A DNA stretch of 32,916 nt, taken from Bryobacterales bacterium. GTDB lineage: Bacteria > Acidobacteriota > Terriglobia > Bryobacterales > Bryobacteraceae. The notes under the pieces are model-generated. The model was not told the origin of the DNA and did no database searches. It saw only the letters and a program-made list of their open reading frames with translations. The translations under genes were made by a program, and so were the position numbers. The stretch's first letter is position 1, and each line of letters opens with the position of its first letter. Shown here one piece after another: positions 776 to 19,695 of this stretch. The stretch spans positions 1 through 32,916 of the forward strand of contig JAUYBU010000534.1 of assembly GCA_030693045.1 (NCBI GenBank), written 5' to 3'.

Positions 776-1195
776 TCAAGGCGTTTGGTCGACGAATCGC
801 CGGACGCATCCGGCGATCTCGTCCCGCACGCGGCGGAACACGGCACGCCGTTGTTGGACCGATCCTGTCGCCGCGGCCGGGTCTTCAAAACTCCAGTGCA
901 GCCGCGCGGCCGCGCCGGGAAAGAGGGGACAGGTCTCCCTGGCGGAGTCGCAGACCGTAATCACCCAGTCGAATGCCTGGGCGACGAACTCACCGACGTG
1001 CCTGGAGCGATGAGTGGAGATGTCGATCCCGATCTCCTGCATTACCTCGATCGCGCCCGGGTTGAGGCCGGCCGGGCGGGTTCCCGCGCTCAACACCTCG
1101 AAGTGATCCCCAGCCAGATGACGGAGCAGTCCCTCGGCCATTTGGCTCCGGCACGAGTTACCGGTACACAGAAACAGGACCCGGCGCTTCCCCAT
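776..1195 (-). CDS. arsC: thioredoxin-coupled arsenate reductase (LMW-phosphatase fold)
   Basis: This 139-residue protein reduces arsenate to arsenite in the cytoplasm. It has the low-molecular-weight phosphatase P-loop CTGNSCRS at residues 10-17. Cys10, Cys15, Cys82 and Cys89 (VCDSARETCP) match the residues of the thioredoxin-linked pI258-type ArsC, in which Cys10, Cys82 and Cys89 relay the disulfide. A WSFEDPAAATG segment carries the expected general-acid Asp. The length is normal for the family. It is the last recognised ars gene, starting 9 bp after the acr3 stop, so arsenite made here is the substrate of the adjacent exporter. The small thioredoxin encoded at 9149-9379 is a plausible but unproven electron donor. 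Confidence 0.95.
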   Translation of the reverse strand: MGKRRVLFLCTGNSCRSQMAEGLLRHLAGDHFEVLSAGTRPAGLNPGAIEVMQEIGIDISTHRSRHVGEFVAQAFDWVITVCDSARETCPLFPGAAARLHWSFEDPAAATGSVQQRRAVFRRVRDEIAGCVRRFVDQTP

Positions 1196-1204
1196 GCTCT
1201 TAGG

Positions 1205-2290
1205 TTACGACGCCGCCGTGCGGCACGTGTCGATAGTGTCGAAACGGCCGCCAAAGAACTTCTTGTTTATCCACAGCGAGACGTTCACCAGCGAGATCAA
1301 CACCGGAACCTCAACCAATGGTCCGATGACGGCGGCGAAAGCGGCGCCGTGATGGATGCCGAAGGTCGCGATGGCGACGGCGATGGCGAGTTCGAAGTTG
1401 TTCGACGCCGAGGTGAACGAGAGCGTGGCGGCCTCGGCATACTGAGCGCCCACCTTCTTACTCATCCAGAACGACGCGAAGAACATCAGCAGAAAGTAAA
1501 TCGTGAGCGGGATGGCCACGCGTACGACGTCGAATGGCAACTGGACGATCATCTCGCCCTTCAGCGAGAACATCACCACGATGGTGAACAGCAGAGAGAT
1601 CAGTGTGATGGGGCTGATCCGGGGAATGAACTTCGTCTCGTACCAGGCCTTGCTCTTTGCCCGGATCAGGAAGAAACGGGTCAACATGCCGGCGATGAAG
1701 GGGATGCCCAGATAGATGAAGACGCTCTTGGCGATTTCGCCCATCGAGATGTCCACCTCCACCGCCTTGAGTCCCAGCCAGCGCGGCACGGTCGCCAGGA
1801 AGAAGTACGAGTAGACGGAGAAGAAGAGCACCTGGAAAATCGAGTTAAAGGCGACCAGCCCGGCGGCGTATTCGCGGTCGCCGCGCGCCAGGTCGTTCCA
1901 CACGATGACCATGGCGATGCAGCGCGCCAGGCCGATCAGGATCAGGCCGGTCATGTATTCCGGCTTGTCTCGCAAGAAGGTCACGGCCAGCACGAACATC
2001 AGCACCGGCCCAACCACCCAGTTTTGAATCAGAGAAAGCGCCAGCACGCGGCGATGCTGGAAGACGCGGCCGAGTTCCTCATACTTCACCTTCGCCAGCG
2101 GCGGATACATCATCAGGATCAAGCCCACGGCGATGGGGATGGATGTCGTACCCACACTGAAGCGGTTCAGGAAGGGCACGATGCCGGGGATGAGATACCC
2201 GCCGCCCACACCCACAATCATTGCCGTGAAGATCCAAAGCGTCAGATACCGGTCGAGAAAAGAAAGGCTGGGGGAATTCTGTTGTGTCAT
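1205..2290 (-). CDS. acr3: Acr3-family arsenite efflux permease
   Basis: This 361-residue inner-membrane protein with about ten hydrophobic segments belongs to the Acr3 branch of the BART superfamily and exports arsenite. Two family hallmarks are visible: the conserved cysteine in [14 protein letters not shown] (Cys124) and the conserved glutamate in [16 protein letters not shown] (Glu300), both needed for transport in characterised Acr3 proteins. The N-terminus is short and cytoplasmic, as usual. It lies between the octaheme cytochrome (10 bp upstream) and arsC (9 bp downstream). No ArsB is present, so Acr3 is the likely membrane partner of the ArsA ATPase encoded earlier in the operon; that pairing is inferred. 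Confidence 0.95.
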
Positions 2291-2300
2291 GGTTTCACCA

Positions 2301-4676
2301 TCAATTCGCTGATACGCGAAATACCGAACGGACTAGCTGGATTGTGGCCAGCGCGGCCAGAAGCAGCAGCGCGAGGTCAAACACCGTATAGGAGATCCAC
2401 GCGAGGCCGGTAAGCATCACCGCCCCGGCGATGGCGGCGATGGCGGCGACCCACAGGATAAGCTTGCGCAAGGCGCTCTTGCCTGCGGGCAGAGCCAAGG
2501 CGGCGGCCACGAGAATGAGACCGGCGGCGACCCAGAAGTGGTTGGCGTCCACCGTGAAGCGGTTGAACGTCATGTAGGCGAACAGTTGCGGCGTTAGCAG
2601 CGTGACGATCAAGCCGATCACACCTAAGACCAGCGCGAGAACACCGGCTTGCCGCGCCCGCGACGGAGTCACATGCGGCTGGCGCTGGAAGAAGTAGCGC
2701 GCCAGCAGGCCGAACCCCGCCACCGCCAGCAAGCTCAGCAGCAGATAAAGCGCGGGCTTGACCCAAGCCTCGCGGATGGCGCCGAGCGAAACCTGCGTAG
2801 CCGATAGTCCGATGACCTCGTAGTTCCTCCCCCAGACGCTCTTTCCGTACTCGTCGAAGGGCCTCCGCAGATTCCGTCCATCAAAGAAGGCGGCGTTGAA
2901 CGCGTGGCAGTCCGTGCAACCTCCCGCTCCGAGCGCGGACCGGGCCGGCAGCACGTTATGGCTGTACTTGTAGACGGAAGCGTAAGGCGTCGCCTCGAAA
3001 GCTTCCTTGGGCATACTCCGATAGTTAGACGACGAGTAGTATTTGCGGCTGTCGTTGATATAGACCAGGCGCCGCCCATCCATCGGGAAGTTAGTTGCCT
3101 TCAGATAGGACAGGGTGGCCTCCAGCAGAGCGTCGATTTCCTCGGGCCGGTTCACTTCCACCATCCCGTCGCCGTTGTCGTCGCGGATTCTGGCGAGTTG
3201 AGGATACTTCGATGGGTCGTTCTTGTGCTGGAGCCACATCGAGTAGAAATCCTTCATGAAGAGCTGGTTCAGCCCCGGCTTCCCCTGTTCTTCAAAGCCC
3301 ACCCAAGCGGAGTGGACGCGATCCACCGGGAAGATCTTGCCCTTGTACCGCGCCAGAGACGGCCGAAACTCGTCCACCGGCTGATCCTTTACCGTAAAAA
3401 GATCAAGCTCGCCGTAGTGGTTCCAGAACTTCATGTCCTGGTCGTAAAAAGTCCAGATCCGCTTTGGGGGCGGCGTGATGCGCGGTGCGCCGTTGAAGAC
3501 GTCGCTGGCCTGCACCAGCGCGGCTTTGGTGTAACGATGCGGAATGTGGCAGGTGACGCAGGCAATCTTGTCCAGGTGCAGCGGAGGCAGCCAGGAATGC
3601 CTGGCGATCGGCGCTCCGAGAGTACCTTCCTGGTGGCACGACTCGCAGCTCCGGACGGTGTTGTCGAGATCGTTGCGGACCCATCCCGACGGATCGTCAC
3701 CCTTGCCGATCTGATGGACTTCCTTGCCACGAATGCGCGCGTCGCTGGCGTGGCTGCCTGAGGTATGGCAATCGACGCATCTCAGTCCTTTCGCCAGGTG
3801 GACATCCGTGTGAGCGGAGAACGAGGCGCCCCGCTTCTTCCAGTCCGGTTTGGCATGGCAGTTCAGGCAAGTCTCGTTCCGAGGCGCCGGAGCGATGTGG
3901 AGTACGACATTCCCGTTCTCGTCGAAGAGATCCTTTTTGTACTCGACCTTCGGCTTCTCGCCGGCGGCCACCTTCCCGGTGATCGCGCCGAAGCCCGCGC
4001 CCTCGGTGGCCGCCCAGCGGAAGTTCAGGTTCGCAAGCTGGGCGTTGCGTTTCTTGTAGTCGTATTCGGGCATGTGGCAGAGCAGACAGTCCGCCTCGAT
4101 GACGCCCGTTTCCGACCAGCGCGCCTTGAAATAATCGCCGTCCAGCCCGTTGTCGCCGCCCGGGGTAAGACCGGACGCGGCGTCGCTCATGCGGTGGTCA
4201 TATCGTTTGCCGTCGCGGTCGTACTCCATGGGTCCGCTGCCGGGGTGACAGTTGCCACAGGTGGCGGTGACGAAGTCGAACGACGTCATGTCTATTGCGC
4301 GGGCGCTCGCGTTCTTTTTCGGCGCCAGTTGCCGGTACAACGGCGCGGGGGAACACCAGTTGCCGCCATAGTTGCCGGGGCTGCTGGCCCAGTTGTAGCG
4401 GGCGGCGAACTCCGGCGGCATCTTCTCACCCTTGCCCTGCGTGAAATGAAAACCCTGGGTGATCTTGTCGTAATCGTGGCAGCCTTTCGCTCCACAGGTT
4501 TGCTTCGGCGAATAGGGTGCGGTCGCATTCGCTCCCGACCCCGGGTTGATGACAGCGCCCGCCTCATCGCGCAAGGGGAATGGCGGACAGACGCCGAAGG
4601 GCTGGCGCGGGGTCTGCGCGAGCGCCGGAAACACGTAAAGAGCAGCGATCAAAACGCGTGTAAGTTGAGTGTTCAT
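2301..4676 (-). CDS. membrane-anchored octaheme cytochrome c
   Basis: The 791-residue product starts with a cleavable signal peptide (about residues 1-20, ending ALAQ). Seven CXXCH haem sites lie at residues 140, 197, 270, 300, 344, 373 and 587, and a CX4CH site (CGAKGCH) at 61-67, so eight haems are possible. An EF-hand-like acidic loop ([15 protein letters not shown]) is near 499-513. Four C-terminal transmembrane segments lie at about 641-661, 676-700, 713-731 and 738-785, so the haem domain should face the periplasm. The start has an AGGAG site 9 bases upstream. The atypical haem and the haem count recall octaheme reductases such as tetrathionate, nitrite and hydroxylamine enzymes, but the membrane tail is unlike those I know. 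Its place between the ArsP-like permease and acr3 suggests an arsenic or sulfur redox role, which is inference. Confidence 0.85.
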
Positions 4677-4688
4677 CGAGCCAAACTC

Positions 4689-5672
4689 CTACCGCATGAG
4701 TGCATTGAATAGATACCCCACACCGATAATTCCCGCGGTCATCAGCGCGATGAACGTGCCGAGAAGCCGCGGGCGTAACACCTTTCGCAAAATGATCATC
4801 TCCGGCAGCGAGAGCGCGGTGACGGCCATGGTGAATGACAGAACAGTGCCGAGCGGCAAGCCTTTGTTGACCAGCGCCTCGGTGATGGGCAGCACACCTG
4901 CCACATTCGCGTACAGTGGAACGCCGATCATGACGGCGATCGGAACGGCAAACGGGTTCCGCGGCCCGGCCCACCGGACGATGAGATCCTGCGGAACGTA
5001 CCCGTGGATGCCCGCGCCGACGCCAATGCCGCCCACGATGTAGGGCCAAACTGTCTTGAAGATCTCACGTGAGGACTTCCATCCCTCTCGCATTCGCACG
5101 CGAAGTGGAATGCCAGGATTGGCTGCTGAGGAGTCCGCATCGTCGAAGGACGCCTGAATCTCCCAGATAAAGGGCTCCACCCACTTCTCAAGTCGAAGCA
5201 GTCCGATGGTGATCCCGCCGATGATGGCGAGTGTGACGCCGAAAGCGACATAAATGGCGGTGACCTTGAATCCGAACAGGCCCCACAACAGAGCCATGGC
5301 GACTTCGTTCACCATGGGCGCCGCGATCAGATACGAGAATGTCACGCCCAGTGGCACTCCGCCTTTCAGAAAACCGATAAAGAGCGGCACCGCCGAGCAA
5401 CTGCAAAACGGAGTGAAGATGCCCACTCCGGCCGTCAGGATGTTACCGAAGAAGTTGCGTCTGCCCCCCAGCCAGCGGCGCACGTTTTCCGGTTGCAGCC
5501 ACGTCTGGAGCGTGCCGACTGTGAAGCTGATGACCAGCAGCAGCAACATCACCTTCGGCACGTCGTAGAAGAAGAACTGCAAGCTGGCGCCGAAGTGCGA
5601 CTCAACGGACAGCCCGAAGAGGTTTGTCACGATCCACCGTGACAGCCAGTCGAAGAGAGTGAAGGGGTTCAT
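4689..5672 (-). CDS. arsP: ArsP/DUF318-type organoarsenical permease
   Basis: This 327-residue polytopic protein has about eight hydrophobic segments in two halves, joined by a charged loop near residues 175-205. The motif TPFCSCSAVPLFIGF near residue 90, followed by GVPLGVTFSYLIAAPMVNE, is diagnostic of the DUF318/ArsP permease family; a second-half repeat (GVPLYANVAGVLPITEAL) is also clear. Characterised ArsP members export trivalent organoarsenicals such as methylarsenite and reduced roxarsone, while other members of the family are assigned to other metals. The ars setting supports the ArsP role. The stop is 12 bp before the octaheme cytochrome start. Confidence 0.85.
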   Translation of the reverse strand: MNPFTLFDWLSRWIVTNLFGLSVESHFGASLQFFFYDVPKVMLLLLVISFTVGTLQTWLQPENVRRWLGGRRNFFGNILTAGVGIFTPFCSCSAVPLFIGFLKGGVPLGVTFSYLIAAPMVNEVAMALLWGLFGFKVTAIYVAFGVTLAIIGGITIGLLRLEKWVEPFIWEIQASFDDADSSAANPGIPLRVRMREGWKSSREIFKTVWPYIVGGIGVGAGIHGYVPQDLIVRWAGPRNPFAVPIAVMIGVPLYANVAGVLPITEALVNKGLPLGTVLSFTMAVTALSLPEMIILRKVLRPRLLGTFIALMTAGIIGVGYLFNALMR

Positions 5673-5884: not shown

Positions 5885-6583
5885 TCAGACTCCCGCTTTT
5901 CGGAGCGACAGGGCCAGTTCCGCGACTCGCCGGCCCAGGCTCCTGGCCGTGGCCAGGCCCGCCTCGTCCTTGCTGATATCGTCTTTCGTGCTGACCAGGA
6001 TTCCGCCCAGCCGCGAGGTGGGCCTTCCCTCGCTGACGATGATCATGTCCTGGCAAAGCATGGCGGCGTGGATCGTTTGAAGCGTCAACTCCTGCCCGCC
6101 GTTACGCGCGGCCCCCACCGCCACCGCCCCGCCGACCTTGTTGCGCAGAGCGAAACTCCCGCGAAAGGCCATCCATCGATCCAGGAACGCCTTGCACAGC
6201 GAACTCATGTTGCTGAAATAGACGGGCGTGCCAATGATGATGCCCCCCACATTCGGCCCGCGCAGTTTAGCCTCGATCTGCGGGAAATCGTCCCGTTCCC
6301 CCGGAGCCAGGGGAATGCCGGCGGCCAAGTCGCCTGGGATTTTGAGGCCCCCTAAGTCGATCAGTTCGATCTCGATATCCGGCCCGGCCCCTTTGGCCGC
6401 CTCGAGGCAAACCCGCACCGCCGCCGCCGTGGTCCGATCTTTGCGGGGGCTGCACGAAATGCCGATGATCTTCACGGTTTTCGCCGGGCTGGCGCCGGCG
6501 CCCCCCTGCGCGTGAGCCAGACCGCCGGGAATGGCGGCGCCCGCCGCCCCAAAGAAAGTACGTCGCGTCCAAATTGCCGACAT
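5885..6583 (-). CDS. Tat-exported flavodoxin-like / NADPH-FMN reductase family protein
   Basis: The 232-residue product begins with a twin-arginine signal (TRRTFFGAAGAA, residues 6-17) and a hydrophobic stretch ending near residue 26. The mature part is a flavodoxin-like fold: a phosphate-binding loop GISCSPRKDRTT (residues 41-52), then IIIGTPVYFSNMSSLCKAFLDRW near 115-137, a common FMN-site and subunit-contact motif. It probably binds FMN and carries electrons to a quinone, metal or arsenical acceptor. Export through Tat is unusual for this family, whose members normally draw on cytoplasmic NAD(P)H, and would fit a folded flavoprotein acting in the periplasm. It lies 22 bp after arsG. It is not ArsH, which lacks a Tat signal. 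Confidence 0.85.
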   Translation of the reverse strand: MSAIWTRRTFFGAAGAAIPGGLAHAQGGAGASPAKTVKIIGISCSPRKDRTTAAAVRVCLEAAKGAGPDIEIELIDLGGLKIPGDLAAGIPLAPGERDDFPQIEAKLRGPNVGGIIIGTPVYFSNMSSLCKAFLDRWMAFRGSFALRNKVGGAVAVGAARNGGQELTLQTIHAAMLCQDMIIVSEGRPTSRLGGILVSTKDDISKDEAGLATARSLGRRVAELALSLRKAGV

Positions 6584-6605: not shown

Positions 6606-7292
6606 TCACACCTCAAAGATGTACGTGAGCGAGTAGTACACGCCCACCGCGATGAACACCACGCCGGTGACACGGCGCGCCCACAACTCGACGCGCGCCA
6701 CGCGGTCGAAGACGGAACTGATCGCGCCGGTTCCGAAGGCCGCCAGAAATGCGAAGCCCAGCACCGGCAGTCCGGTGCCGATGCCGTACAAAGAGGGCAT
6801 CACAACCCAGGCGCCGCTCGCGACGGCGAGCGGGATGAGACTGCCGAAGAACAGCGCCGCCGAGACCGGACAGAACGATAGCGCGAAGACCGAGCCAAGC
6901 GCGGCCGCGCCCCACAGGCCCCAGCGATCGGCCCCTCGCTGGACTCTCTCGCCGATCCCGCCCGTGCCTGGATTCCACTTGAGCAGTTCCAGCACGAACA
7001 TCCCGGCGATAATCAGCACCGGCCCCAGTAACTGGTTCATGTGGCGTAGCAATGCGTCAGACACTCCAACGATGGAGGCAAGACTGGTGGCCAACAGCAC
7101 TCCCAAAACCGCATAGGTGAACATGCGGCCAGCGGTATACAGCAGGCCGGCCATGATCACGCGCCGGGTGTCGGCGAGACCTTTGCCGATGTAGGCGATC
7201 GCGACGATGTTCGAGGCCAGCGGACATGGGCTGATCGAGGTGAGAATCCCCAGCCACAGAGCGGTGGCCGCCGCCACGAAAGGAGCTTCCAT
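6606..7292 (-). CDS. arsG: ArsG-family aromatic arsenical efflux permease
   Basis: This is a 228-residue membrane protein with six hydrophobic segments. A conserved SPCPLASN motif is near residues 18-25 and a second Cys-Pro motif, SFCPVSAALFFGS, near 140-150, as in CcdA/DsbD-like transporters. Together with the two genes just upstream it matches the arsEFG set, in which ArsG exports the trivalent aminoaromatic arsenical made by ArsEF. The reading frame extends upstream, but the ATG at 7292 is chosen because it overlaps the arsF stop as TGATG (translational coupling) and because residues before it look like a shadow of arsF. Confidence 0.85.
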   Translation of the reverse strand: MEAPFVAAATALWLGILTSISPCPLASNIVAIAYIGKGLADTRRVIMAGLLYTAGRMFTYAVLGVLLATSLASIVGVSDALLRHMNQLLGPVLIIAGMFVLELLKWNPGTGGIGERVQRGADRWGLWGAAALGSVFALSFCPVSAALFFGSLIPLAVASGAWVVMPSLYGIGTGLPVLGFAFLAAFGTGAISSVFDRVARVELWARRVTGVVFIAVGVYYSLTYIFEV

Positions 7293-7789
7293 CAGAGCTT
7301 CCGCAGATAGCCGCGGACCTCCTTCTCGACGTATCCCTGCATCAGCTCCGGAGTCCCTACCAACTCCCAGGTATCGTTCAGAACTTTGTATTCCTTCTGC
7401 TGACCGTCCTTGATGAGCGCCAGCACCAGGGACCGCGTGAACAACTGGTAATCTTGAATATAGTGGCGGTTTTCGAGAAGCTGGACGTTCACCAGCCGCC
7501 ACTCCAGACGGCCGGCGGCGAGATCTTTCGCAAACTTCTGCTGAATGACCGCCTTGGAGTAAGTCTCTATGGCCTTGCAGGTCACGCAGCGCACCGTGAC
7601 ATGGAAGTAGTAGGCGATGACCTTCGTCCCTTGTTCCCGAGGTGCGCCAGGTGAAGCCGCGGGCGCTGCTTGAGCGGCTGCGGTGGCGCTAGAAGCCTGT
7701 GCCGGCCGGTCGCCGCGCAGGAACATGTATCCCAAGCTGACGGCGACAAAGGCGAGCAGAAGCGCCGTAACGACTTTTCGTAAGTTCAT
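7292..7789 (-). CDS. arsF: ArsF-family nitrophenyl-arsenical reductase subunit
   Basis: The 165-residue product has an N-terminal membrane anchor (residues 5-24), an Ala/Pro-rich linker (about 28-50) and a thioredoxin-like domain with a redox CxxC (CVTC, residues 68-71). It matches the ArsF family, which acts with ArsE in reducing nitroaromatic arsenicals such as roxarsone and nitarsone to their trivalent amino forms before export by ArsG. The anchor suggests the CxxC domain lies in the periplasm; which side of the membrane the reaction occurs on is not settled by the sequence. The ATG overlaps the arsE stop by 4 nt and the stop overlaps the arsG start by 1 nt. Confidence 0.85.
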   Translation of the reverse strand: MNLRKVVTALLLAFVAVSLGYMFLRGDRPAQASSATAAAQAAPAASPGAPREQGTKVIAYYFHVTVRCVTCKAIETYSKAVIQQKFAKDLAAGRLEWRLVNVQLLENRHYIQDYQLFTRSLVLALIKDGQQKEYKVLNDTWELVGTPELMQGYVEKEVRGYLRKL

Positions 7790-8184
7790 GTTTCGACGCC
7801 CGCCTGCGCCTCCTTCAGGAGTTCGCGAAGCCGGCCGGCAACCTGCGCGACGCGCTCGCCGGACACGGGCGTCTTGCCCTTCTCGATGCCCAGGTCAATC
7901 ACGCGAAAGTGGATGAAGTCGTTGAATCCGCCCTTCTCCATGGTTTTCCGCGCGCAGTCGCTATCGCAGCCGTCGACGACTAACATGCGGTTCGCGGTCT
8001 TCGTGTTGACCACAATGAGTTCCACATCTCCGGCGATTCCAGCCAGGCAGAACATCTTCGCTTCTTTCGCTTTGTGAAGCGCGCGGACCGCAAGGTCGGC
8101 GATCTCCGCGGTATCGGCGGCGCCCGAGCAACAGAACATCAGGTCCGGCGCCGCGTCGCACCCGCACTTTGAACGAATTTTCAC
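7786..8184 (-). CDS. arsE: ArsE-family DGC-domain zinc-binding protein
   Basis: This 132-residue soluble protein has seven cysteines: Cys7 and Cys9 (KCGCD), the pair Cys18-Cys19, Cys46, Cys73 in the DGC motif (VVDGCDSDCARK) and Cys77. This is the DGC (putative zinc-binding) family, to which ArsE belongs. With ArsF it forms the nitroreduction half of the ArsEFG system. The start is GTG at 8184, placed 8 bases after a GGGAG site; an ATG 8 bases upstream is out of frame and closes at once. The last codons overlap arsF by 4 nt. The residues suggest metal or arsenic binding, but the ligand is not known from sequence. Confidence 0.8.
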   Translation of the reverse strand: MKIRSKCGCDAAPDLMFCCSGAADTAEIADLAVRALHKAKEAKMFCLAGIAGDVELIVVNTKTANRMLVVDGCDSDCARKTMEKGGFNDFIHFRVIDLGIEKGKTPVSGERVAQVAGRLRELLKEAQAGVET

Positions 8185-8211: not shown

Positions 8212-9030
8212 TCAGACGTCCACTGTGTCCATCTCAGCCCCGGCGACACCAAGGCCCCTGCAGATTTCGATTAAAGCGCCACGCAGGCCGGCGTATTCCG
8301 GAGAGAAGACAGGCTCACATTGAGAGGGCGTTGCCTCTCCCCGCCACAACCGGATGGCGAACGCCATGCAAGTTCGCTCTCCGCAGGCCTTGCAGTTCGT
8401 GCGGGGCAGCCGTTCGTAAATCTCGAGAGCGGGCGGCTTGGACTTCATGTCGTACGACGGCGGGATGGCCGCACGTCGTGCCCAGACAGAATTCGCAAGC
8501 ACCCGGAGAAACTCGAACGTGCGCCAGCCATCCACCAGGTCGTCCGCCTTTCCGATGGTCACGCGGCGAGGATAGAGTGTGATGAGCCGGTGCTTGTCCA
8601 TGAACGTCAGGAAGACAGACTTCGCGTTAAAACACGCGCTACGAATCTCGGTATTCAGATAGGGAAGAACCGCGGTCAGATCGCCTGAGATATGCGCGAT
8701 GAGACGGACTTTAGTCACATCCGCCATGCACGGAGCCAGGAACATGACGACTGCTTGCCCGAAAATATCTTCCTGGAACTCCCGCGGGGGGCGCTGGGGA
8801 ACCGCGACCGTCCCAAGCTTGCGATCTACCCACCCGGCCACGGCAATCAACTCTTCGTCGCGGCTCTGGAGTGTCGCGAGTCCGTACGGATCGCAGATAA
8901 GAGCCGGCGCTCCCACAAAGGAATAGCCCGGATCGGGAGATAACACCCCGTATGACAGCCGCGCGAAGTCCATGCGTGATTTCGCTTTTTCGAACTCGCT
9001 GCTCCTCGGAAAGGCGACGACAATATCCAT
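8212..9030 (-). CDS. ferredoxin-like protein with a C-terminal [4Fe-4S] motif
   Basis: The 272-residue protein has no signal peptide. Its C-terminal part has the cysteine pattern CX2CX4CX16C (Cys213, 216, 221, 238; LPRTNCKACGERTC), the pattern of the Fe-S domain in RnfB and in the corrinoid iron-sulfur protein. The first 200 residues are not assigned; they include SFVGAPALICDPYG near 37-50 and a GQAVVMFLAPCMADVTKVRL stretch near 91-110. It is placed between the thioredoxin and arsEFG, so an electron-transfer role feeding ArsEF is reasonable but inferred. Its ATG overlaps the stop of a small upstream ORF as TGATG and has no good ribosome-binding site of its own, so it is probably translated by coupling. 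Confidence 0.75.
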   Translation of the reverse strand: MDIVVAFPRSSEFEKAKSRMDFARLSYGVLSPDPGYSFVGAPALICDPYGLATLQSRDEELIAVAGWVDRKLGTVAVPQRPPREFQEDIFGQAVVMFLAPCMADVTKVRLIAHISGDLTAVLPYLNTEIRSACFNAKSVFLTFMDKHRLITLYPRRVTIGKADDLVDGWRTFEFLRVLANSVWARRAAIPPSYDMKSKPPALEIYERLPRTNCKACGERTCMAFAIRLWRGEATPSQCEPVFSPEYAGLRGALIEICRGLGVAGAEMDTVDV

Positions 9031-9107
9031 CAGCGACGCCCCACGCGCGTTTCCCCTTGCGGGCCGTCCGGCACTCCGTCACAGAAGCGCTTGGGGGTGG
9101 TTTTCAT
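9030..9107 (-). CDS. 25-residue small ORF coupled to the Fe-S protein gene
   Basis: An ATG at 9107 preceded by AGGAG about 10 bases upstream opens a 25-codon frame (start MKTTPKRFCDGVPDG, one cysteine) whose TGA overlaps the ATG of the Fe-S gene as TGATG. It fills the only sizeable gap between arsA-thioredoxin and the Fe-S gene. It may be a small protein, a leader that sets translation of the next gene, or the decayed stub of a gene. No family is recognised. Confidence 0.4.
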   Translation of the reverse strand: MKTTPKRFCDGVPDGPQGETRVGRR

Positions 9108-9148
9108 CGGAATCGGTTCTCCTCGCGTATGTGTGAATGTTGGGCGAT

Positions 9149-9379
9149 CTAACGGAGTAACTCGCGGATCTCAGCCGGAGTCGCCACTTTACCTGCCAGC
9201 TTCACTCTGCCGTCCACGGCAAGCGCCGGCGTCATCATCACGCCGAACTGAACGATGTCTTTGATGTCAGTGACTTTCTCGAGTTGGTAGTCCAACCCCA
9301 TCTCACGCGCGGCGGTTTCGGCGTTCTCCGTGAGTTGCTTGCATTTGGCGCAGCCGGTACCGAGTATCTGTATCTTCAT
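9149..9379 (-). CDS. small CxxC thioredoxin-like protein
   Basis: This 76-residue protein has the compact thioredoxin fold of the TM0996/MTH895 redox family. Its active-site motif is CAKC (residues 10-13, in ILGTGCAKCKQL), and the cis-Pro region is VMMTPALAVDG (about 47-57). It has no signal peptide. The ATG overlaps the arsA stop by 4 nt (ATGA), so its level is tied to ArsA. In other ars operons small thioredoxins of this sort are found with organoarsenical genes; it could reduce ArsC, ArsF or the arsenicals themselves. Which of these is not determinable here. Confidence 0.85.
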   Translation of the reverse strand: MKIQILGTGCAKCKQLTENAETAAREMGLDYQLEKVTDIKDIVQFGVMMTPALAVDGRVKLAGKVATPAEIRELLR

Positions 9380-11172
9380 GTGTCCGCTCCTTCGGCGTCA
9401 GTCCCCGCTCTGCTGTTCGCCAACCGGCGCAGCCGCTCCGGTCCCACCGGCGCTTCGGCGCTCCATGGAATCAGTGCGAGGCGAGAGGAAAACCGGTCGC
9501 GCACCTCGGCGATGAAGGGCCACTCGCGCGCTCCCCGCTCGACCAGCACCGGATCGCGGAACCCGCTGCCGGCGAAACTCTGGTTCACCACCCAGGCGAA
9601 CGGCTGGATTCCGGCGCGCAGCAGATCTTCCCGCAGGCGGGCCGCCTCATGCACCGGAGTCGCCTCGGGCAGCGTGACCAGAAGCACGCGCGTGAAGCGC
9701 GCGTCGCGCAGGCGCGGCAGCAGGTGACGCACCGCTTCGGGTACGTCGCTGGTGGTGCGCGCGACGTCGCGGTGATAGGCTTCGGCCGCATCCAGCAGCA
9801 GCAGGGTGTGCCCGGTGGGAGCCGTGTCAAGCACCACGAAGCACTCTTCGCCCTCGGCGACCGTGCGGGCGAAGGCGCTGAACACGGCGATCTCTTCGGT
9901 GCAGGGCGACCGCAGATCTTCTTCAAGCAGAGCGATGCCCTCGGCGTCCAGTTGCGCTGCGGACCGGGCCATGACCTCGGCGGTGTATCGCGCCGTTTCG
10001 ACGGCCGGGTCGATGCGGCTGACCTGAAGCTTGGGGACCGGTTCCCCGACCGTCACCGCCAGGTGGGCCGCCGGATCGGTGGTGCTCAGGTGCACGCGGT
10101 GGCCGCGGTGCGCAAGTTCGATGGCGATGGCCGAGGCCACGGTGGTCTTGCCGACGCCTCCCTTGCCCATGGTCATGACCACGCCATGGCCGGCCGCTTC
10201 GATTGCGTCAATCAGATCGGACAGCGGAATGGCGGAGGGGGGAACCCGGTACGCGCCGAAATCGGTGAATGAGGATATGGTCCCGGGTTTCAGCATTCCG
10301 CGGAGTTGGGCGATGCCCATCGGTGCGCAGGCGAGCAACGGAATGTCCAGGCGCGGCAACACTGCCAGACCCGCGGGGATGCCCTCGACGGCCTGCCGGC
10401 CGCGCGCTTCCAGGGCCCGGGCGGCGGGGTCGCCTTGGTCCTGAGCGACGAAGAGGCCGTTGAGAATGAGGCATTGATTGGACACCCCGAGTTGAGACAA
10501 CTCGGCCCGCGTGCGGTCGGCTTCAGTAAGTGCGGAAGGCTCGGGGCGGCTGACCAGAACCACGGTGGACGTGGAACCGTCGGCCAGGGCGTGCAAGCTG
10601 GATTCGTAGAGCGACCGCTGCGCCTGAAGACCGGCGAGCGGCCCCAGACAGGATGTTCCGGTGGTGTTGGTGGCGATGAAGCCGGTCCACGCCCCCGGCA
10701 GTTTGAGCAGGCGCAGAGTATGTCCGGTCGGAGCGGTGTCGAATAGGATATGGTCGAATTCCGAAGTGGCGTGGGCGTTCCCCAGTAACTTCATGAACTC
10801 GTCGAAAGCCGCGATCTCGACGGTGCATGCGCCCGAGAGTTGCTCCTCGATGCTGTTCACCGCGGCATCCGGCAGCACGCCGCGGTACGGCCCCACCACT
10901 CGTTCGCGATAGGCCTTCGCGGAAGCTTCGGGATCGATGTTCAGCGCACACAATCCGGCCGCGCCCGGAACAGCCATTGGCTGGCCCGTTAACTCGACCC
11001 CCAGCACTTCGTCGAGGTTAGAAGCCGGATCGGTGCTGACCAGCAGAATCCGTTTTCCGGACTCGGCCAGGACCAGTGCCGTCGCACAGGCCAGCGAGGT
11101 CTTGCCGACACCGCCTTTGCCGGTGAAGAACAGGATTCGCGTCGCGCGGCCGAGTAAGTCGGTGTAAGTCAC
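9376..11172 (-). CDS. arsA: ArsA tandem arsenite-transporting ATPase
   Basis: The 598-residue soluble ATPase has two homologous halves with deviant Walker A loops GKGGVGKT at residues 18-25 and 336-343 and a DTAPTGHTL switch in each half. The three arsenite-binding cysteines of E. coli ArsA are conserved: Cys116 (LSGACTVEIA), Cys175 (TSCLGPLAG) and Cys424 (RSPCTEEIAV). It energises efflux through a membrane partner; with no arsB here, Acr3 is the obvious candidate. The frame runs on upstream to 11700, but the GTG at 11172 is chosen because it overlaps the arsD stop as GTGA and because the upstream extension is an antisense-like shadow of arsD and arsR. Confidence 0.95.
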   Translation of the reverse strand: MTYTDLLGRATRILFFTGKGGVGKTSLACATALVLAESGKRILLVSTDPASNLDEVLGVELTGQPMAVPGAAGLCALNIDPEASAKAYRERVVGPYRGVLPDAAVNSIEEQLSGACTVEIAAFDEFMKLLGNAHATSEFDHILFDTAPTGHTLRLLKLPGAWTGFIATNTTGTSCLGPLAGLQAQRSLYESSLHALADGSTSTVVLVSRPEPSALTEADRTRAELSQLGVSNQCLILNGLFVAQDQGDPAARALEARGRQAVEGIPAGLAVLPRLDIPLLACAPMGIAQLRGMLKPGTISSFTDFGAYRVPPSAIPLSDLIDAIEAAGHGVVMTMGKGGVGKTTVASAIAIELAHRGHRVHLSTTDPAAHLAVTVGEPVPKLQVSRIDPAVETARYTAEVMARSAAQLDAEGIALLEEDLRSPCTEEIAVFSAFARTVAEGEECFVVLDTAPTGHTLLLLDAAEAYHRDVARTTSDVPEAVRHLLPRLRDARFTRVLLVTLPEATPVHEAARLREDLLRAGIQPFAWVVNQSFAGSGFRDPVLVERGAREWPFIAEVRDRFSSRLALIPWSAEAPVGPERLRRLANSRAGTDAEGADT

Positions 11173-11474
11173 TCGACTCCAGTCATGTGGGCCAGTTCCT
11201 CGCGAGTGGGATAGCATCCCTTGCTGACGATGGCGCCGTTCAGAAGGATCAAAGGAAGGCAGCGGTTTCCGTATTGAGCCAGCGCCGCCGTCACGGTTGG
11301 GTTGGCGGCGTAGGCCTGCGGCTGCTGGGCCAAATTGAATCGCTCGACTACCAATCCCTGCCCGGCCAGCCAATGGAAATCCGCCGCGAAGCGGACCAGG
11401 GTGGGATCCACGCCCGGGCCGCAGATTCCGGTGGAACAGCACATGGGAGGATCGAACACTTCCAGTTTCTTCAT
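11169..11474 (-). CDS. arsD: ArsD arsenic metallochaperone
   Basis: The 101-residue protein has the canonical N-terminus with Cys12, Cys13 and Cys18 (PPMCCSTGICGPGVD), the three cysteines that bind As(III) and hand it to ArsA in characterised ArsD proteins. Thioredoxin-like features follow (LPLILLNG near residues 72-79). The ATG at 11474 is chosen over one 45 bases upstream because it sits about 9 bases after GGAG and gives the family's usual start. Its TGA overlaps the arsA GTG. Distal CC pairs found in some ArsD proteins are absent. Confidence 0.92.
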   Translation of the reverse strand: MKKLEVFDPPMCCSTGICGPGVDPTLVRFAADFHWLAGQGLVVERFNLAQQPQAYAANPTVTAALAQYGNRCLPLILLNGAIVSKGCYPTREELAHMTGVE

Positions 11475-11528
11475 GAATCCGGTCTCCTCTTCGCTCTTCG
11501 TCGAACGACGATTTGCCATCCAATAACC

Positions 11529-11882
11529 TCAAATGATCGCCACCAGCGCCTTCAGCCGCCGCAACACCTCGTAGTTGATACAGTAGCCCACGCGCGAGCC
11601 CTCTTCCCGGCTGCGGATCAAGCCGCAGTCCTTCAGAATCCGAAGGTGCTCGGAGACGGTCGATTGCGCCAGCGGCAACTCGTCCACAATCTGGCTGCAA
11701 ACCCGCGCTTCCTTGCGAGACAAAAGGCGCAGTATGCGCACGCGGGCCGGATGGCCGACCGCCTTGGCCAGCACCGCCAACTCTTCGTCCGCCCCTGGAC
11801 CTTCAATGGGCCGCGGCCCCGCTTCGGGTTCGGTCTCCGAGGGCGGGCAACATACGGCCTCAATTTCGGTTTCTTGTTTCAT
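11529..11882 (-). CDS. arsR: ArsR-family As(III)-responsive repressor
   Basis: This 117-residue winged-helix repressor has its recognition helix region around LPLAQSTVSEHLRILKDCG (residues 69-87). The arrangement of cysteines is Cys11-Cys12 at the N-terminus and Cys62 at the start of helix 3 (ARVCSQIV), which resembles the CgArsR type (N-terminal pair plus one cysteine) rather than the E. coli CVC-DLC type. It is the first gene of the ars operon and probably represses itself and the genes below by binding the inverted repeat just upstream. The start has no clear ribosome-binding site. Confidence 0.92.
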   Translation of the reverse strand: MKQETEIEAVCCPPSETEPEAGPRPIEGPGADEELAVLAKAVGHPARVRILRLLSRKEARVCSQIVDELPLAQSTVSEHLRILKDCGLIRSREEGSRVGYCINYEVLRRLKALVAII

Positions 11883-11886
11883 CGCT

Positions 11887-11904
11887 TATCGTCGATTCAC
11901 GATA
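11887..11904. promoter_or_regulatory. candidate ArsR operator (6-6-6 inverted repeat)
   Basis: TATCGT at 11887-11892 and its exact reverse complement ACGATA at 11899-11904 are separated by six bases. The repeat covers the -10 box and the predicted start of transcription, where a repressor would block RNA polymerase. Confidence 0.55.
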
Positions 11905-11927
11905 CTATACCGGCGGGATCGTGTCAA
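11899..11927 (-). promoter_or_regulatory. candidate sigma-70 promoter of the ars operon
   Basis: On the minus strand a perfect TTGACA (-35, 11922-11927) is followed after 17 bases by TATCGT (-10, 11899-11904). The predicted transcription start near 11892 leaves a leader of only about 10 nt before the arsR ATG at 11882, consistent with the missing ribosome-binding site. Confidence 0.6.
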
Positions 11928-11948
11928 TCCCTGGCCGAACGCGGGCCG

Positions 11949-12852
11949 CGCTCACTCGTAGCGCAGCGCTTCGACCGGGTCCAGGCGCGAGGCCTTGATG
12001 GCAGGGGCCATGCCTGCGACCAGGCCGATGGCCAATAACACGGCGGTGGAAATCATTACCGAGGCGGCCGAGACCTGCAGGTGGACGCGGCCCGCGCTCT
12101 CCGCCCCGGTCTGTTTGAAGAGCGGTCCCAGTAGCGGCATCGAACTCAGCGCCCAGGTGAGGCCGGCTCCGAACAGGATGCCCAGCAAAGCCCCCGCTCC
12201 GACGATGACCAGCGCTTCTATCAGGAACTGCGCCAGAATGGTGCGGCGGCGGCCGCCGATGGCTTTGAGCATCCCGATCTCGCGGGTGCGTTCCATCACC
12301 GAGGCCAGCATGATATTGGCCAATCCTATGGCCCCGATGGCCAGCGTCAGCGAGCCGATGAAGGCCAGCAGGGCCTTGAGCGCCATGCCCATGCCGTCGA
12401 TGATTTTCATGAACTTGTTGAAAGCTATGATTTCGATCGCCTTCTGATCCTGCGGCGAAAAGCGGTGCAGCCCGGCCAGCGTTGAGCGCACCTGGCGGAT
12501 GGCCTCCTCGCGCACCGCCGGCGTCACCGGCGACCAGACGATGAGATCGACATACCGGATGTCGCGGAACAGCGCCATGGTCTCGAACGGAATGAACACA
12601 CACATGTTGTCCGGAGCGTTGTAGCTGGCCAACTGCCCTTTAGTCTGGAGCACGCCCACGACGGTGAACCGCAGCCCGTTGAGCGTGATCTGCTCGCCCA
12701 CGGGCGGAATGGCGCTGAACAGTTCGAAGGCGGCCTGCGAACCGAGCACCGCCACGCGCTCGCGGCGCTGCGTGTCTTCGTGGTTGAACCAGCGGCCCGC
12801 GGCCATGCGGATGTTTCGCACGGCTTGATACTCCGGCCAGACGCCACGGGTC
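11949..12852. repeat. direct repeat, copy 1 (904 bp, permease 3' part)
   Basis: Aligns without gaps at a constant offset of 2814 to 14763-15666. The encoded segments differ at about eight of roughly 300 residues. Similarity ends sharply at 12852, where the sequence switches to an antitoxin-like relic. Confidence 0.9.
11952..12852 (-). pseudogene. 5'-truncated MacB-like permease
   Basis: This is the C-terminal ~300 residues of a permease nearly identical to the one encoded at 14766-16031. It keeps part of the periplasmic MacB_PCD domain and the three C-terminal membrane segments (including EIGMLKAIGGRRRTIL and the terminal DPVEALRYE) but lacks the first transmembrane helix. The frame continues to an ATG at 12875 through a short unrelated sequence, so a chimeric product is possible, but without the first helix it is unlikely to work. 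It lies just upstream of the arsR promoter region. Confidence 0.85.
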
Positions 12853-12936
12853 CCCAAGCCGCGTTTCTTCCCCAAAGAGCCTTTGCTGGATGTCCCACGT
12901 CATCCGCACACAGTCAGAATCCTTCTTCGGTTTCAC
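12853..12936 (-). pseudogene. 5' relic of a small antitoxin-like gene
   Basis: From a GTG at 12936 the minus strand encodes VKPKKDSDCVRMTWDIQQRL and a few more residues, matching the start of the 72-residue protein encoded at 13653-13871 (MKPIKDFDCVQMKWDIQQKL). The similarity stops where the truncated permease begins, so this is the stub of a second copy, cut by the recombination that brought in the permease fragment. Confidence 0.7.
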
Positions 12937-13652: not shown

Positions 13653-13871
13653 TCAACTCCGGCCGGCCATCTGGCCGAGGAGTTCGCTCGCTTTCCTGCG
13701 TTCCTCTGTCTCCATTCGCTGGAGGAATCGGCCTAGGATGGGATTGTTCCGTACCCGCTCATCCCGCCGGCGGCGGGCTTCTTCCGGGCCGAGCAGGCGT
13801 TCTTCCTCCAGGAGCTTTTGCTGGATGTCCCATTTCATCTGTACGCAGTCAAAATCCTTTATTGGTTTCAT
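13653..13871 (-). CDS. small protein partner of the PIN toxin (putative antitoxin)
   Basis: The 72-residue charged, helical protein (MKPIKDFDCVQMKWDIQQKL, then a Glu/Arg-rich stretch) starts within the end of the PIN-domain gene, with a 4-nt overlap. Small proteins with this opening are commonly found beside PIN-domain genes, so it is probably the cognate antitoxin in a toxin-first arrangement. I do not know a characterised member. A truncated second copy is at 12853-12936. Confidence 0.6.
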   Translation of the reverse strand: MKPIKDFDCVQMKWDIQQKLLEEERLLGPEEARRRRDERVRNNPILGRFLQRMETEERRKASELLGQMAGRS

Positions 13872-14544: not shown

Positions 14545-14603
14545 TCAGCGATGATTTCCACGAAACCAGCCCGGAGTGTAGCCAGGTCCCGGGTCTCTGA
14601 AAT

Positions 14604-14668
14604 GGGGGACACGCCTGTGTCCCGGGTTGAGCGATGGTTTCCGTAAGATTAGCCCGGAGTGTCCCCAG
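14604..14668. repeat. GGGGACAC palindromic element, copy 1
   Basis: This unit of about 65 bp begins with a hairpin (GGGACAC-gcct-GTGTCCC) and ends in GGAGTGTCCCC, complementary to its start. It recurs 86 bp further on and again at 17402. A more decayed version seems to precede it at 14541-14600. Confidence 0.75.
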
Positions 14669-14689
14669 GGGCCGGGTCTCAGGTCGCTT

Positions 14690-14754
14690 GGGGGACACGC
14701 CTGTGTCCCGGGTTAAGCGATGGTTTCCGTAAGATTAGCCCGGAGTGTCCCCAG
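14690..14754. repeat. GGGGACAC palindromic element, copy 2
   Basis: Nearly identical to copy 1 through AGCGATGGTTTCCGTAAGAT and the GGAGTGTCCCC end. With copy 1 it fills most of the 436-bp gap between the PIN gene and the intact permease. Confidence 0.75.
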
Positions 14755-14762
14755 GTGGGGTC

Positions 14763-15666
14763 CGCTCACTCATACCGCAGCGCTTCGACCGGGTCCAGGC
14801 GCGAGGCCTTGATGGCAGGGGCCATGCCTGCGACCAGGCCGATCACTAGCAGCACGGCGGTGGAAATCATTACTGAGGCGGCCGAGACCTGCAGGTGGAC
14901 GCGGCCCGCGTTCTCCGCCCCGGTCCGTTTGAAGAGCGGCCCCAGCAGCGGCATCGAACTCAGCGCCCAGGTGAGGCCGGCTCCGAATAGGATGCCGAGC
15001 AGCGCCCCGGCTCCGACAATGACCAGCGCTTCCACCAGGAACTGCGCCAGAATGGTGCGGCGGCGGCCGCCGATGGCTTTGAGCATGCCGATCTCGCGGG
15101 TGCGTTCTATCACCGAGGCGAGCATGATATTGGCCAATCCGATGGCCCCGATGGCCAGGGTCAGCGAGCCGATGAATGCCAGCAGCGCCTTGAGCGCCAT
15201 CCCCATGTCGTCGATGATTTTCATGAACTTGTTGAAAGCCATGATTTCGATCGCCTTCTGATCCTGCGGCGAAAAGCGGTGCAGCCCGGCCAGCGTCGCG
15301 CGCACCTGGCGGATCGCCTCCTCGCGCACCGCCGGCGTCACCGGCGACCAGACGATGAGATCGACATACCGGATGTCGCGGAACAGCGCCATGGTCTCGA
15401 AGGGAATGAACACGCACATGTTGTCCGGAGCGTTGTAGCTGGCCAACTGCCCCTTGGTCTGGAGCACGCCCACGACGGTGAAGCGCAGCCCGTTGAGCGT
15501 GATCTGCTCGCCCACGGGCGGAATGGCGCTGAACAGTTCGAAGGCGGCCTGGGAACCCAGCACCGCCACGCGCTCGCGGCGCTGCGTGTCTTCGTGGTTG
15601 AACCAACGGCCCGCGGCCATGCGGATGTTGCGCACGGCTTGATACTCCGGCCAGACGCCCCGGGTC
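14763..15666. repeat. direct repeat, copy 2 (within the intact permease gene)
   Basis: Matches 11949-12852 in the same orientation without gaps. The two copies bracket the toxin-antitoxin cluster. Confidence 0.9.
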
Positions 15667-17352: not shown

Positions 17353-17541
17353 AAATGGGGACAGTAACAAATAACCCCTTTTCCGGGGTCTCAGGTCGCT
17401 TGGGGGACACGCCTGTGTCCCGTGGAAAGCGATGGGTTGCGTAAGATTAGCCCGGAGTGTCCCCGGGGGAGCCGGAAAAGGGGTTATTTGTTACTGTCCC
17501 CTTTTCTGGAAAAGGGGTTATTTGTTACTGTCCCCTTTTCC
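17353..17541. repeat. cluster of dispersed repeats between permease and LPS genes
   Basis: The cluster holds one forward GGGGACAGTAACAAATAACC unit (17353-17384), one GGGGACAC palindromic element (17402-17465) and two inverted copies of the first unit (17474-17506 and 17508-17541). The forward and inverted units face each other around the palindromic element. No gene is seen here. Confidence 0.8.
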
Positions 17542-17799
17542 GAGGGGCTCGAAGGGGCGGTAGCGGTTGGCCGACAGCAGCTCGCGCGCCGCCGTCTCGG
17601 ACGCCGGCGCGACATAGAAGAACGCCCCAACCCGCTCGGACACGAACACGAAACCGCCGCGGTAGCTGTCGGCTTCGACCAGGTAGTCGTATCCGGCATC
17701 GGTCAGCAGCGCTTCCAGCTTCAACGCCTGGTTCAGCTTCTTGGCGATGTAGACCAGAGCCAGTTCCTGGTCCGCGAAAAACTCCGCCGACTGCCGCAT
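17518..17799 (-). CDS. hypothetical small protein with repeat-derived C-terminus
   Basis: The 93-residue soluble protein begins after a strong GGAGGAAAC ribosome-binding site. Residues 1-85 look like an ordinary small alpha/beta protein (ALVYIAKKLNQALKLEALL, GFVFVSERVGAFFYV); a family is not recognised. The last eight residues (LGKGDSNK) and the stop come from the GGGGACAGTAACAAATAA repeat, so the natural C-terminus has been replaced or the gene lengthened by the repeat. It is the last gene of the LPS-core unit, 10 bp after the methyltransferase-like gene. Confidence 0.65.
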   Translation of the reverse strand: MRQSAEFFADQELALVYIAKKLNQALKLEALLTDAGYDYLVEADSYRGGFVFVSERVGAFFYVAPASETAARELLSANRYRPFEPLGKGDSNK

Positions 17800-17809
17800 G
17801 TTTCCTCCA

Positions 17810-18367
17810 TCACAAGGCTGCCGCTTTCCAGGCCAGCAGCGCCACGCCGGCCAGAAAACCCAGCAACGCCTGGTACTCCCGGTTGTGCAGGTAGAGACCG
17901 GCGCGGAATCTGCCGGCGTCGCCCCACCGCCGCGCCCGCGGCCACAGCAGAGGCACGTTCACGGCATACTCGGCGTAGCGCGGAAACAACTTCCGCAGAT
18001 GCTGTTCCTCGAGTTCGATCGCCGGCAGGTAGATCAGCGCAAACACCGCCCCGGACAGCGCGGCAAGCTCCAGGCGGTGCGCCGCGATCACCAGTCCCGC
18101 GGCCACGATCAAGGTCCCCAGGTAGAGCGGGTTGCGCGTGCGGGCGTAAGGACCGGACGTCGCCAGCCGCTCGTTTTTCGCCAGGTGGCCGGCCGCCCAG
18201 GCACGCAGCGCCAGCCCGGCGAGCGCCACCGGAACCCCCATCGCAAGCGTCGCCGCGCTGGGCCGCGAAAGCCACGCGAAGGCCCCCGCCAGCAGGAATC
18301 CACAGGGCACGCGAAGCCTCTGCACCAGGTCCGCATAAGGCTTCGGAAACCAGTAGCGGCCCCTCAC
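17810..18367 (-). CDS. isoprenylcysteine-methyltransferase-like membrane protein
   Basis: The 185-residue protein has four to five hydrophobic segments. The stretch LATSGPYARTRNPLYLGTL (near residues 68-86) and the later ELEEQHLRKLFPRYAEYA (about 118-135) are the SAM-binding signatures of the ICMT/PEMT family, which methylates prenylated or lipid substrates; bacterial members mostly have unknown substrates. The GTG start overlaps the heptosyltransferase stop (GTGA), so it is coupled to LPS-core synthesis. Confidence 0.8.
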   Translation of the reverse strand: MRGRYWFPKPYADLVQRLRVPCGFLLAGAFAWLSRPSAATLAMGVPVALAGLALRAWAAGHLAKNERLATSGPYARTRNPLYLGTLIVAAGLVIAAHRLELAALSGAVFALIYLPAIELEEQHLRKLFPRYAEYAVNVPLLWPRARRWGDAGRFRAGLYLHNREYQALLGFLAGVALLAWKAAAL

Positions 18368-19308
18368 GCCAGGGCTCCCGTCAAAGCCTCAAACACCATG
18401 TCCGGCGTGATCTCGCGCATGGACCGGTCGATCTCCTTGCGGCGCTTGTAACTGGTTACCGCGTTGGCGCTTCGAAGCACTCTGATGGACTCGCCGCAGG
18501 GGCCGTTGCGGGCCGGGTCGGTGGGACCGAACACGGCCACGCCGGGCTTGCCCAGCGCCGCCGCCAGATGCAGCGGGCCGCTGTCGATGCCCACCACGGC
18601 CGCCGCGCGCCGCGTCGCATCAATCAGCCCGGAAACCGCCGAACAGTGAACCGCAACGTCCGGCAGATTCGCCAGCGCCCCAAGCGACTGCGGCGGCGCG
18701 TTCAACACCAACACCAGATTCCGTTCCTTGAGCCGCCGCCCCAGCCGCGGGTAAAACTCCAGTGGCCACTGTTTGGAGGGCCACCCGGCCATCGGGCAGG
18801 CCAGCACGAAAGGCCCCTCCGGCAGCCGGCCCTGCGGCTCGCCGAGCGGCAACGGAAAGGCGCGGACGACGTTCGACGCGCCGGCGCCGGCGGCCACCTC
18901 CAGATGGCGATCGATAATGTGCGCCGCCCTGGCCTGGACCTTGGTCGAGTAGAACAGCGCCGCCAGCCGCTCGCGCGCCTGGCTCTGATGCGGGCCGCAG
19001 ATCTTCTCGGCGCGGGACGCCGCCGCGACCAGGGCGGACTTGATGAGGCCCTGGAAATCGACGGCCAGGTCGAAACGCCTCTCGCGCAGCCTGCGCCGCA
19101 GCGCCAGAAAGCCAGCCAATGACCTCTCGACCTCGAAGACCTCGTCGACGAACGGATTGCCTTCGATCAGCCCCGCCCACTTCCGCTCGATGGCCCAGAC
19201 CAGTTGGCTGTGGGGAAAACTGTGCTTGAGCGTGGCCACGGCGGGCAGCGTGTGGACGATGTCCCCCATCGCGCCCAGCCTGACCACAAGGATGCGGGGG
19301 CCGGCCAT
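18364..19308 (-). CDS. waaC: family 9 glycosyltransferase, heptosyltransferase I-like
   Basis: This 314-residue protein has the GT9 two-domain Rossmann layout. The N-terminal ILVVRLGAMGDIVHTLPAV (residues 6-24) holds the catalytic-region Asp, and VDFQGLIKSALVA follows near 84-96. The nucleotide-sugar site is GIDSGPLHLAAALGKPGVAVFGPTDP near 238-265. These features fit heptosyltransferase I, which adds the first heptose to Kdo in the LPS core at the cytoplasmic face. The exact acceptor in this organism is not known. It is the third gene of the core unit. Confidence 0.85.
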   Translation of the reverse strand: MAGPRILVVRLGAMGDIVHTLPAVATLKHSFPHSQLVWAIERKWAGLIEGNPFVDEVFEVERSLAGFLALRRRLRERRFDLAVDFQGLIKSALVAAASRAEKICGPHQSQARERLAALFYSTKVQARAAHIIDRHLEVAAGAGASNVVRAFPLPLGEPQGRLPEGPFVLACPMAGWPSKQWPLEFYPRLGRRLKERNLVLVLNAPPQSLGALANLPDVAVHCSAVSGLIDATRRAAAVVGIDSGPLHLAAALGKPGVAVFGPTDPARNGPCGESIRVLRSANAVTSYKRRKEIDRSMREITPDMVFEALTGALA

Positions 19309-19314
19309 GGTCGC

Positions 19315-19689
19315 CTACCCGGCCGCCTGACGCTGATGGACGCGGACGACCAGATCCCGGGTCCGCCGCGCGTCGGCGATTTCCTCGCCATCCAATAGCG
19401 CGGATGGCAACTGCGCGATCCACGCGGGGTCGCCTTCCTCGACTACGACATGGCTGACCGCGCTCAGCGCAGCCACCAACTCGGCCCGCGCGCGCGCCGG
19501 AAGCAGCGGCCGCTCGGGAGTCCGGACCACCACCAGCAACCCCTCCGCCGTGGCCGCGATCTCCGCCAGGCGCGCGGCGTGCGCGGCGGTCAACGGGTCG
19601 AAGTAGCCGGTAACCACCGTGAGCCGCGCGCCGGCGCCGGCGATGCGTTCGGCCGCGGCGCGCTCGATGATCTTCGCCCGTGTATCCAC
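19315..19689 (-). CDS. divergent RfaE2-like nucleotidyltransferase
   Basis: The 124-residue protein starts at a GTG and has one HIGH-type nucleotidyltransferase motif region, VVTGYFDPLTAAHAARL (about residues 25-41). This resembles GCFDxLHxGHxxxL of the ADP-heptose cytidylyl/adenylyltransferase RfaE2, but the first histidine of HxGH is lost and the glycine is replaced. It is shorter than RfaE2 (about 150-160 residues). Its place between two heptosyltransferase genes suggests a role in making or sensing ADP-heptose, though it may be catalytically altered. Confidence 0.65.
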   Translation of the reverse strand: MDTRAKIIERAAAERIAGAGARLTVVTGYFDPLTAAHAARLAEIAATAEGLLVVVRTPERPLLPARARAELVAALSAVSHVVVEEGDPAWIAQLPSALLDGEEIADARRTRDLVVRVHQRQAAG

Positions 19690-19695
19690 TTGTTC

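Follow-up and report, generated by a model that had tools for sequence, protein, structure and literature searches.

To our knowledge, the enzymes credited with redox chemistry on arsenic are molybdoenzymes, thiol reductases and enzymes that depend on oxygen or NADPH. Several multihaem enzymes serve below for comparison. Octahaem tetrathionate reductase (OTR) of Shewanella has a lysine-ligated catalytic haem 2, the octahaem sulfite reductase MccA/SirA carries a two-cysteine site beside its catalytic haem, the nitrite reductases NrfA/ONR are recognized by a catalytic CXXCK haem motif, and HAO contains a tyrosine-crosslinked P460 haem. Of these, OTR, MccA and NrfA work as reductases; reduction driven by quinol suits anaerobes that use menaquinone. 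A review describes the CX15CH motif of MccA and reserves for catalytic cytochromes a range of polypeptide per haem that includes about 8.5 kDa (PMC7096707). The open-licence papers searched contain no description of the octahaem gene reported below as an ars component.

The gene is located in a window of 32,916 nucleotides, which is the whole stretch of DNA analysed (contig JAUYBU010000534.1 of a Bryobacterales bacterium). It is the tenth gene of a tight ars operon of 12 genes on the minus strand, ordered arsR, arsD, arsA, Fe-S-motif protein, DGC protein, arsF, arsG, Tat-exported FMN reductase, arsP, octahaem gene, acr3 and arsC. The features of the operon are the following, in window coordinates.

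11899..11927, minus strand: sigma-70-like promoter match just before arsR, the only one in the region
11529..11882, minus strand: arsR-like regulator, from reading of the translation
11169..11519, minus strand: arsD-like gene, from reading of the translation
9376..11144, minus strand: arsA ATPase, family model, start approximate
8212..9030, minus strand: protein with an Fe-S motif, PF04060, assigned to no named family
7786..8184, minus strand: DGC-domain protein, domain match
7292..7789, minus strand: arsF-type protein with a CxxC motif, family model
6606..7292, minus strand: arsG-type permease, family model, start taken at the ATG at 7292
5885..6583, minus strand: FMN reductase-family protein with a twin-arginine signal, PF03358, R7R8 in 7/7 homologues
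4689..5672, minus strand: arsP-type permease, PF03773, with no second copy in the host genome assembly
2301..4676, minus strand: octahaem cytochrome c of 791 aa, with a signal (~1-21), a haem domain (~22-625) and a predicted five-helix membrane tail (626-791)
1205..2290, minus strand: acr3, arsenite efflux, 459 bits (cut-off 283)
776..1195, minus strand: arsC, thioredoxin-type arsenate reductase family, 150 bits (cut-off 174)

Family models back ArsC, Acr3, ArsP, ArsG, ArsF and ArsA, and the assignments of ArsR and ArsD come from their translations. Most intergenic gaps are shorter than 30 nt, with two longer ones, 345 nt between arsA and the Fe-S protein (9031-9375), to which no gene was assigned, and 212 nt before arsP. 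The octahaem gene is separated from arsP by 12 nt and from acr3 by 10 nt, and the Shine-Dalgarno-like GGTAGGAG lies upstream of its start. An earlier sequence-only reading of this DNA had placed the gene inside an ars operon, and both the family models of the neighbours and the tight spacing bear this out. The promoter match before arsR is weak, since 1.6 such sites are expected by chance. ArsG conserves, in 25 of 26 sequences, the first cysteine of the pair expected of a full CcdA-type thiol carrier, and of that pair only the first. The product of 5885-6583 is a Tat-exported flavoprotein within an ars operon; its family, PF03358, is also that of ArsH. The host genome encodes an arsenite methyltransferase (ArsM) on another contig. 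Repeats lie by the operon: a 300-nt direct repeat of 90% identity (11932-12231 and 14746-15045) that overlaps a frame of permease-like (FtsX-type) sequence, together with 82-nt repeats in two families (14588-14755 and 17386-17467; 12854-12935 and 13789-13870).

The minus-strand frame at 2301-4676 is a single open frame, and the plus strand is interrupted there by stops. The haem domain is 77-84% identical in the four nearest homologues, and the gene is evidently under strong purifying selection. A chance origin of the frame is excluded because the haem motifs are kept in nearly all of about 50 homologues. The N-terminus of the protein is a Sec-type signal of 21 residues, and the elements discussed below are located as follows.

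4587..4589, minus strand: C30, a non-haem cysteine present in 51/51 sequences of the ars clade and in none of the distant octahaem relatives examined
4476..4496, minus strand: haem 1 motif CGAKGCH (CX4CH), residues 61-67, CX2CH in many ars-linked relatives
4353..4355, minus strand: C108 in GGNWCSP, between haems 1 and 2, 52/52 in the ars clade
2304..2801, minus strand: membrane tail, residues 626-791, with conserved K640, D710, H713, G751 and D767, no Pfam match

Eight haem sites are present, the CX4CH site and seven of the CXXCH type (CGNCH, CLLCH, CLNCH, CVDCH, CESCH, CVTCH and CTDCH), as the sequence-only reading had counted them. Its further suggestion that the CX4CH site may hold a special haem is abandoned. 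Haem 1 is CX4CH in the subclade of the window protein itself and CX2CH in many other ars-linked members, so the longer motif is a linker variant only. Neither CXXCK, the mark of NrfA/ONR, nor CX15CH, the mark of MccA, is among the eight motifs. The haem part comprises about 8.5 kDa of polypeptide per haem, and about 210 residues separate haems 7 and 8.

The descent of the protein was approached through profiles and structures. The OTR family model TIGR04315 gives 43.2 bits, far below its cut-off of 375, but in an hhalign comparison with the OTR-type proteins gathered here haems 2-7 fall in register (probability 99.1, E 5e-19). The protein is therefore a remote member of the superfamily and not of the OTR family. 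A lysine replaced in the motif after haem 2 had been considered as a difference from OTR, but the OTR rows themselves do not keep that lysine constant, and the idea was given up. The sequence search of solved structures returned no convincing relative and none of the MccA type, and Foldseek searches with the whole protein and the haem domain of the predicted model returned spurious matches only. Searches of plasmids and of PHROGs gave no match. Among the OTR-type proteins, those at L144-L147 are about 965 residues long and carry 14 haem motifs. Other distant octahaem relatives, on gammaproteobacterial and Nitrosomonas contigs (L099, L100, L102, L105), are followed by more multihaem genes with six, seven and eight haems, a series that is perhaps an electron conduit.

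The distribution of the gene was followed by a genome scan with motif patterns taken from an alignment of three orthologues. The scan yielded 56 loci with 46-73% identity and a further nine that are far off (25-35%). The 56 belong to at least 10 phyla, including Acidobacteriota, Myxococcota, Thermodesulfobacteriota, Planctomycetota, Verrucomicrobiota, Kiritimatiellota, Bacteroidota, Ignavibacteriota, Gemmatimonadota, Spirochaetota and KSB1. These phyla are intermixed on the tree, and the clade has apparently spread horizontally; on a quick tree, the far rows join the ars set on long branches with weak support. Nearly all loci are contigs of metagenome-assembled genomes, in which the binning can be wrong and the adjacency within a contig stands. 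A whole-protein homology search in the host phylum found six strong genomes (57-72% identity) before a drop to 38% or less. In two of the six, where the flanks are long, ars genes are clearly present, and ArsR is found on one short contig; the other three short contigs show no ars genes by HMM, and one of them (L125, the contig of L064) has ArsG by tblastn. The weaker matches of this search show nothing beyond single weak HMM matches to ars genes.

Neighbours within about 10 kb were counted in the loci longer than 5.3 kb (n=50), with family HMMs built from the loci. ArsP, ArsE, ArsF, ArsG or Acr3 is found near 39 of the 50 clade loci, compared with 0 of 22 distant octahaem relatives (Fisher 1e-10; non-independence among the rows makes this value indicative only). 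ArsP heads the list of neighbours (33/50), followed by ArsR (32), ArsG (25), ArsE (20), Acr3 and ArsF (18 each), ArsC (14) and ArsM (13), and the ars neighbours are nearly always on the strand of the octahaem gene. The Tat-exported FMN protein occurs in seven loci, including the window. Also found repeatedly nearby are an alginate-export-type porin (22/50), a ProC-like protein, thioredoxin, rhodanese, FmdE, TauE, CDF and RND efflux genes. Ten of the 50 loci lack core ars genes, some of them having rhodanese, a porin or no known neighbour. This survey was called for by the sequence-only reading, which would have been contradicted by homologues that act on a known, unrelated substrate and for the most part lie away from ars loci; the recurrence in ars loci points the other way. 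Judged from gene content, the octahaem cytochrome is a recurrent component of ars loci beyond the background of related cytochromes, and the link is evidently not accidental.

Several smaller observations were made in these loci. The ProC-like NADP-binding protein (PF03807) is present in 16 of the 50, often beside thioredoxin (e.g., L061, L062, L063, L065, L072, L090 and L095). In Bacteroidota, L069, L074 and L078 contain a compact ArsR-rhodanese-octahaem set with no other core ars genes close by. The contig of L046 holds a second octahaem copy at 17374-19829, in two frames (a GVC-type N-terminal part and then a six-haem part), which is either broken or affected by a sequencing error.

Two non-haem cysteines are invariant in the clade. 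C108 is inside one of the search patterns, and its constancy is in part a product of how the sequences were selected; between haems 1 and 2 a constant cysteine is found in OTR-type proteins too. C30 lies outside the patterns and, as far as sequence comparison goes, is special to the ars clade. A role of C30 as a lipoprotein anchor was rejected, since no lipobox is formed by the residues ahead of it and, in L046, a lipobox-like site occurs separately, before C30.

The tail was examined in an AlphaFold2 model (57-row alignment, mean pLDDT 84, pTM 0.81). Five helices of membrane length are predicted (626-664, 671-694, 713-731, 735-756 and 761-786) and hydropathy gives five peaks, one more than the four helices first read from the sequence; most full-length relatives have four or five peaks. 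Among 42 five-helix tails, K640, D710 and G751 are constant, H713 is kept in 41, and R635, E636 and D767 in 40. By the positive-inside reading, the conserved residues would lie at the periplasmic side, adjoining the haem domain. The tail should not bind haem b, because H713 is the only conserved histidine and the histidine pairs that haem b needs are not found. The tail of L058 and of L091 consists of one helix, and a separate gene for cytochrome b561 (PF01292) comes next; in L054 the cytochrome b561 (PF01292) is fused on, and L060 and L080 show such arrangements by sequence alone. That a module known to face quinone can stand in for the tail is the strongest sign that the tail works with the quinone pool, and it lends support to the proposal, made at the outset, that the C-terminal helices form such a link.

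The preferred reading is a dedicated ars-locus octahaem cytochrome c of the wider OTR/HAO superfamily that acts as a periplasmic quinone-linked oxidoreductase for an arsenic species, and its probability is put at about 0.5. The export signal, the eight haem sites, the membrane tail, the operon position, the recurrence in ars loci, the homology of haems 2-7 and the two clade-invariant cysteines are features of the sequences themselves. The arsenic substrate is suggested by the neighbourhood together with the sequence, and neighbourhood is not function. In the proposed mechanism, the cytochrome would be held on the outer face of the cytoplasmic membrane and would exchange electrons between the quinone pool and a periplasmic arsenic species. 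The tail would offer a candidate quinone site on the periplasmic side (K640, D710, H713, G751, D767), in the role of cytochrome b561. By analogy with OTR, where haem 2 is the catalytic position, the catalytic centre may be placed at haem 2, near C108 and perhaps C30, and these two thiolates could hold As(III) or a thiolated arsenical. Quinol would then reduce a pentavalent, methylated or thiolated arsenical, and any trivalent product entering the cell would be cleared by ArsP and Acr3. The balance tips slightly towards reduction and away from oxidation of trivalent arsenicals (about 55:45), because OTR, MccA and NrfA are reductases and quinol-driven reduction fits menaquinone-using anaerobes.

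Oxidation is close behind as a direction, and as a self-contained rival account it is less probable than the preferred reading but ranks first among the alternatives. Trivalent (methyl)arsenicals exported by ArsP and Acr3 would be oxidised to a charged pentavalent form that re-enters poorly, with the electrons passed to quinone or another periplasmic acceptor; the cytochrome would be an oxygen-independent counterpart of ArsH, possibly partnered by the Tat-exported FMN protein. Against this, menaquinone is an unfavourable oxidant near the As(V)/As(III) potential (the reaction runs uphill), and reductases make up most of the characterised superfamily, with HAO and HDH as exceptions. The rank of ArsP as the commonest neighbour, the ArsM genes in 13 of the 50 loci and elsewhere in the host genome, and the FMN protein in the window and six further loci favour oxidation, as does the proposal that MAs(III) is an antibiotic in anoxia, where ArsP confers resistance to it (PMC11653729). 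A reductase of a non-arsenic substrate, such as tetrathionate, polysulfide, sulfite, selenite, antimonate or a nitro compound, that travels with metal(loid) islands is a still less probable explanation. The kinship with OTR and the rhodanese, TauE, RND, CDF and FmdE neighbours agree with it; rhodanese and TauE, being sulfur-related, make a sulfur substrate possible, and together with the ten loci without core ars genes they make a non-arsenic or thioarsenate substrate possible. Nevertheless, ars genes are by far the commonest neighbours, and the link is specific to the clade of the window cytochrome. It is quite improbable that the protein is no catalyst but an electron-transfer partner, one that feeds or drains either the Tat-exported FMN protein or the thiol proteins ArsE, ArsG and ArsF: ArsE, ArsF and ArsG are frequent neighbours with conserved cysteines, but the polypeptide-to-haem ratio falls in the catalytic range and the FMN protein is found in just seven loci. 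Chance co-location with the ars operon, which has the ten loci without core ars genes and nothing further in its favour, is hardly credible against 39 of 50 loci versus 0 of 22 and the tight operon spacing.

If the preferred reading is true, a multihaem cytochrome established in ars loci across many phyla that are largely anoxic would add a new enzyme class to the arsenic cycle, and octahaem chemistry on arsenicals would be new. It could explain how anaerobes handle thioarsenates or methylarsenite, a proposed antibiotic in anoxia (PMC11653729). The gene offers a marker as well as a concrete hypothesis on a cysteine pair. More specifically, a haem-based, oxygen-independent enzyme that converts methylated or thiolated arsenic in the periplasm beside ArsP, with quinone-linked electrons and a two-cysteine site, is a tentative proposal whose odds fall somewhat short of even.

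Compared with known systems, the window protein shares with OTR the eight haems, haems 2-7 in register and the constant cysteine between haems 1 and 2, and it differs in the much larger haem domain, the stretch between haems 7 and 8, the membrane tail, the ars context and C30. With MccA/SirA it shares eight haems, and the proposed pairing of C30 and C108 would recall the two-cysteine site of that enzyme; the window protein has CX4CH, and its relatives CX4CH or CX2CH, in place of CX15CH. The octahaem proteins at L033-L038, from the same bacterial family, are fused or adjacent to cytochrome b561, and in the best of these the haem part is about 38-42% identical, but they lack C30 and C108 and have no core ars genes nearby. 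ArsH, ArsI, ArsC, Arr, Aio and ArsEFG act on arsenicals, with ArsF and ArsG present in the window operon and ArsE in related loci; we know of no octahaem catalytic subunit in any of these systems.
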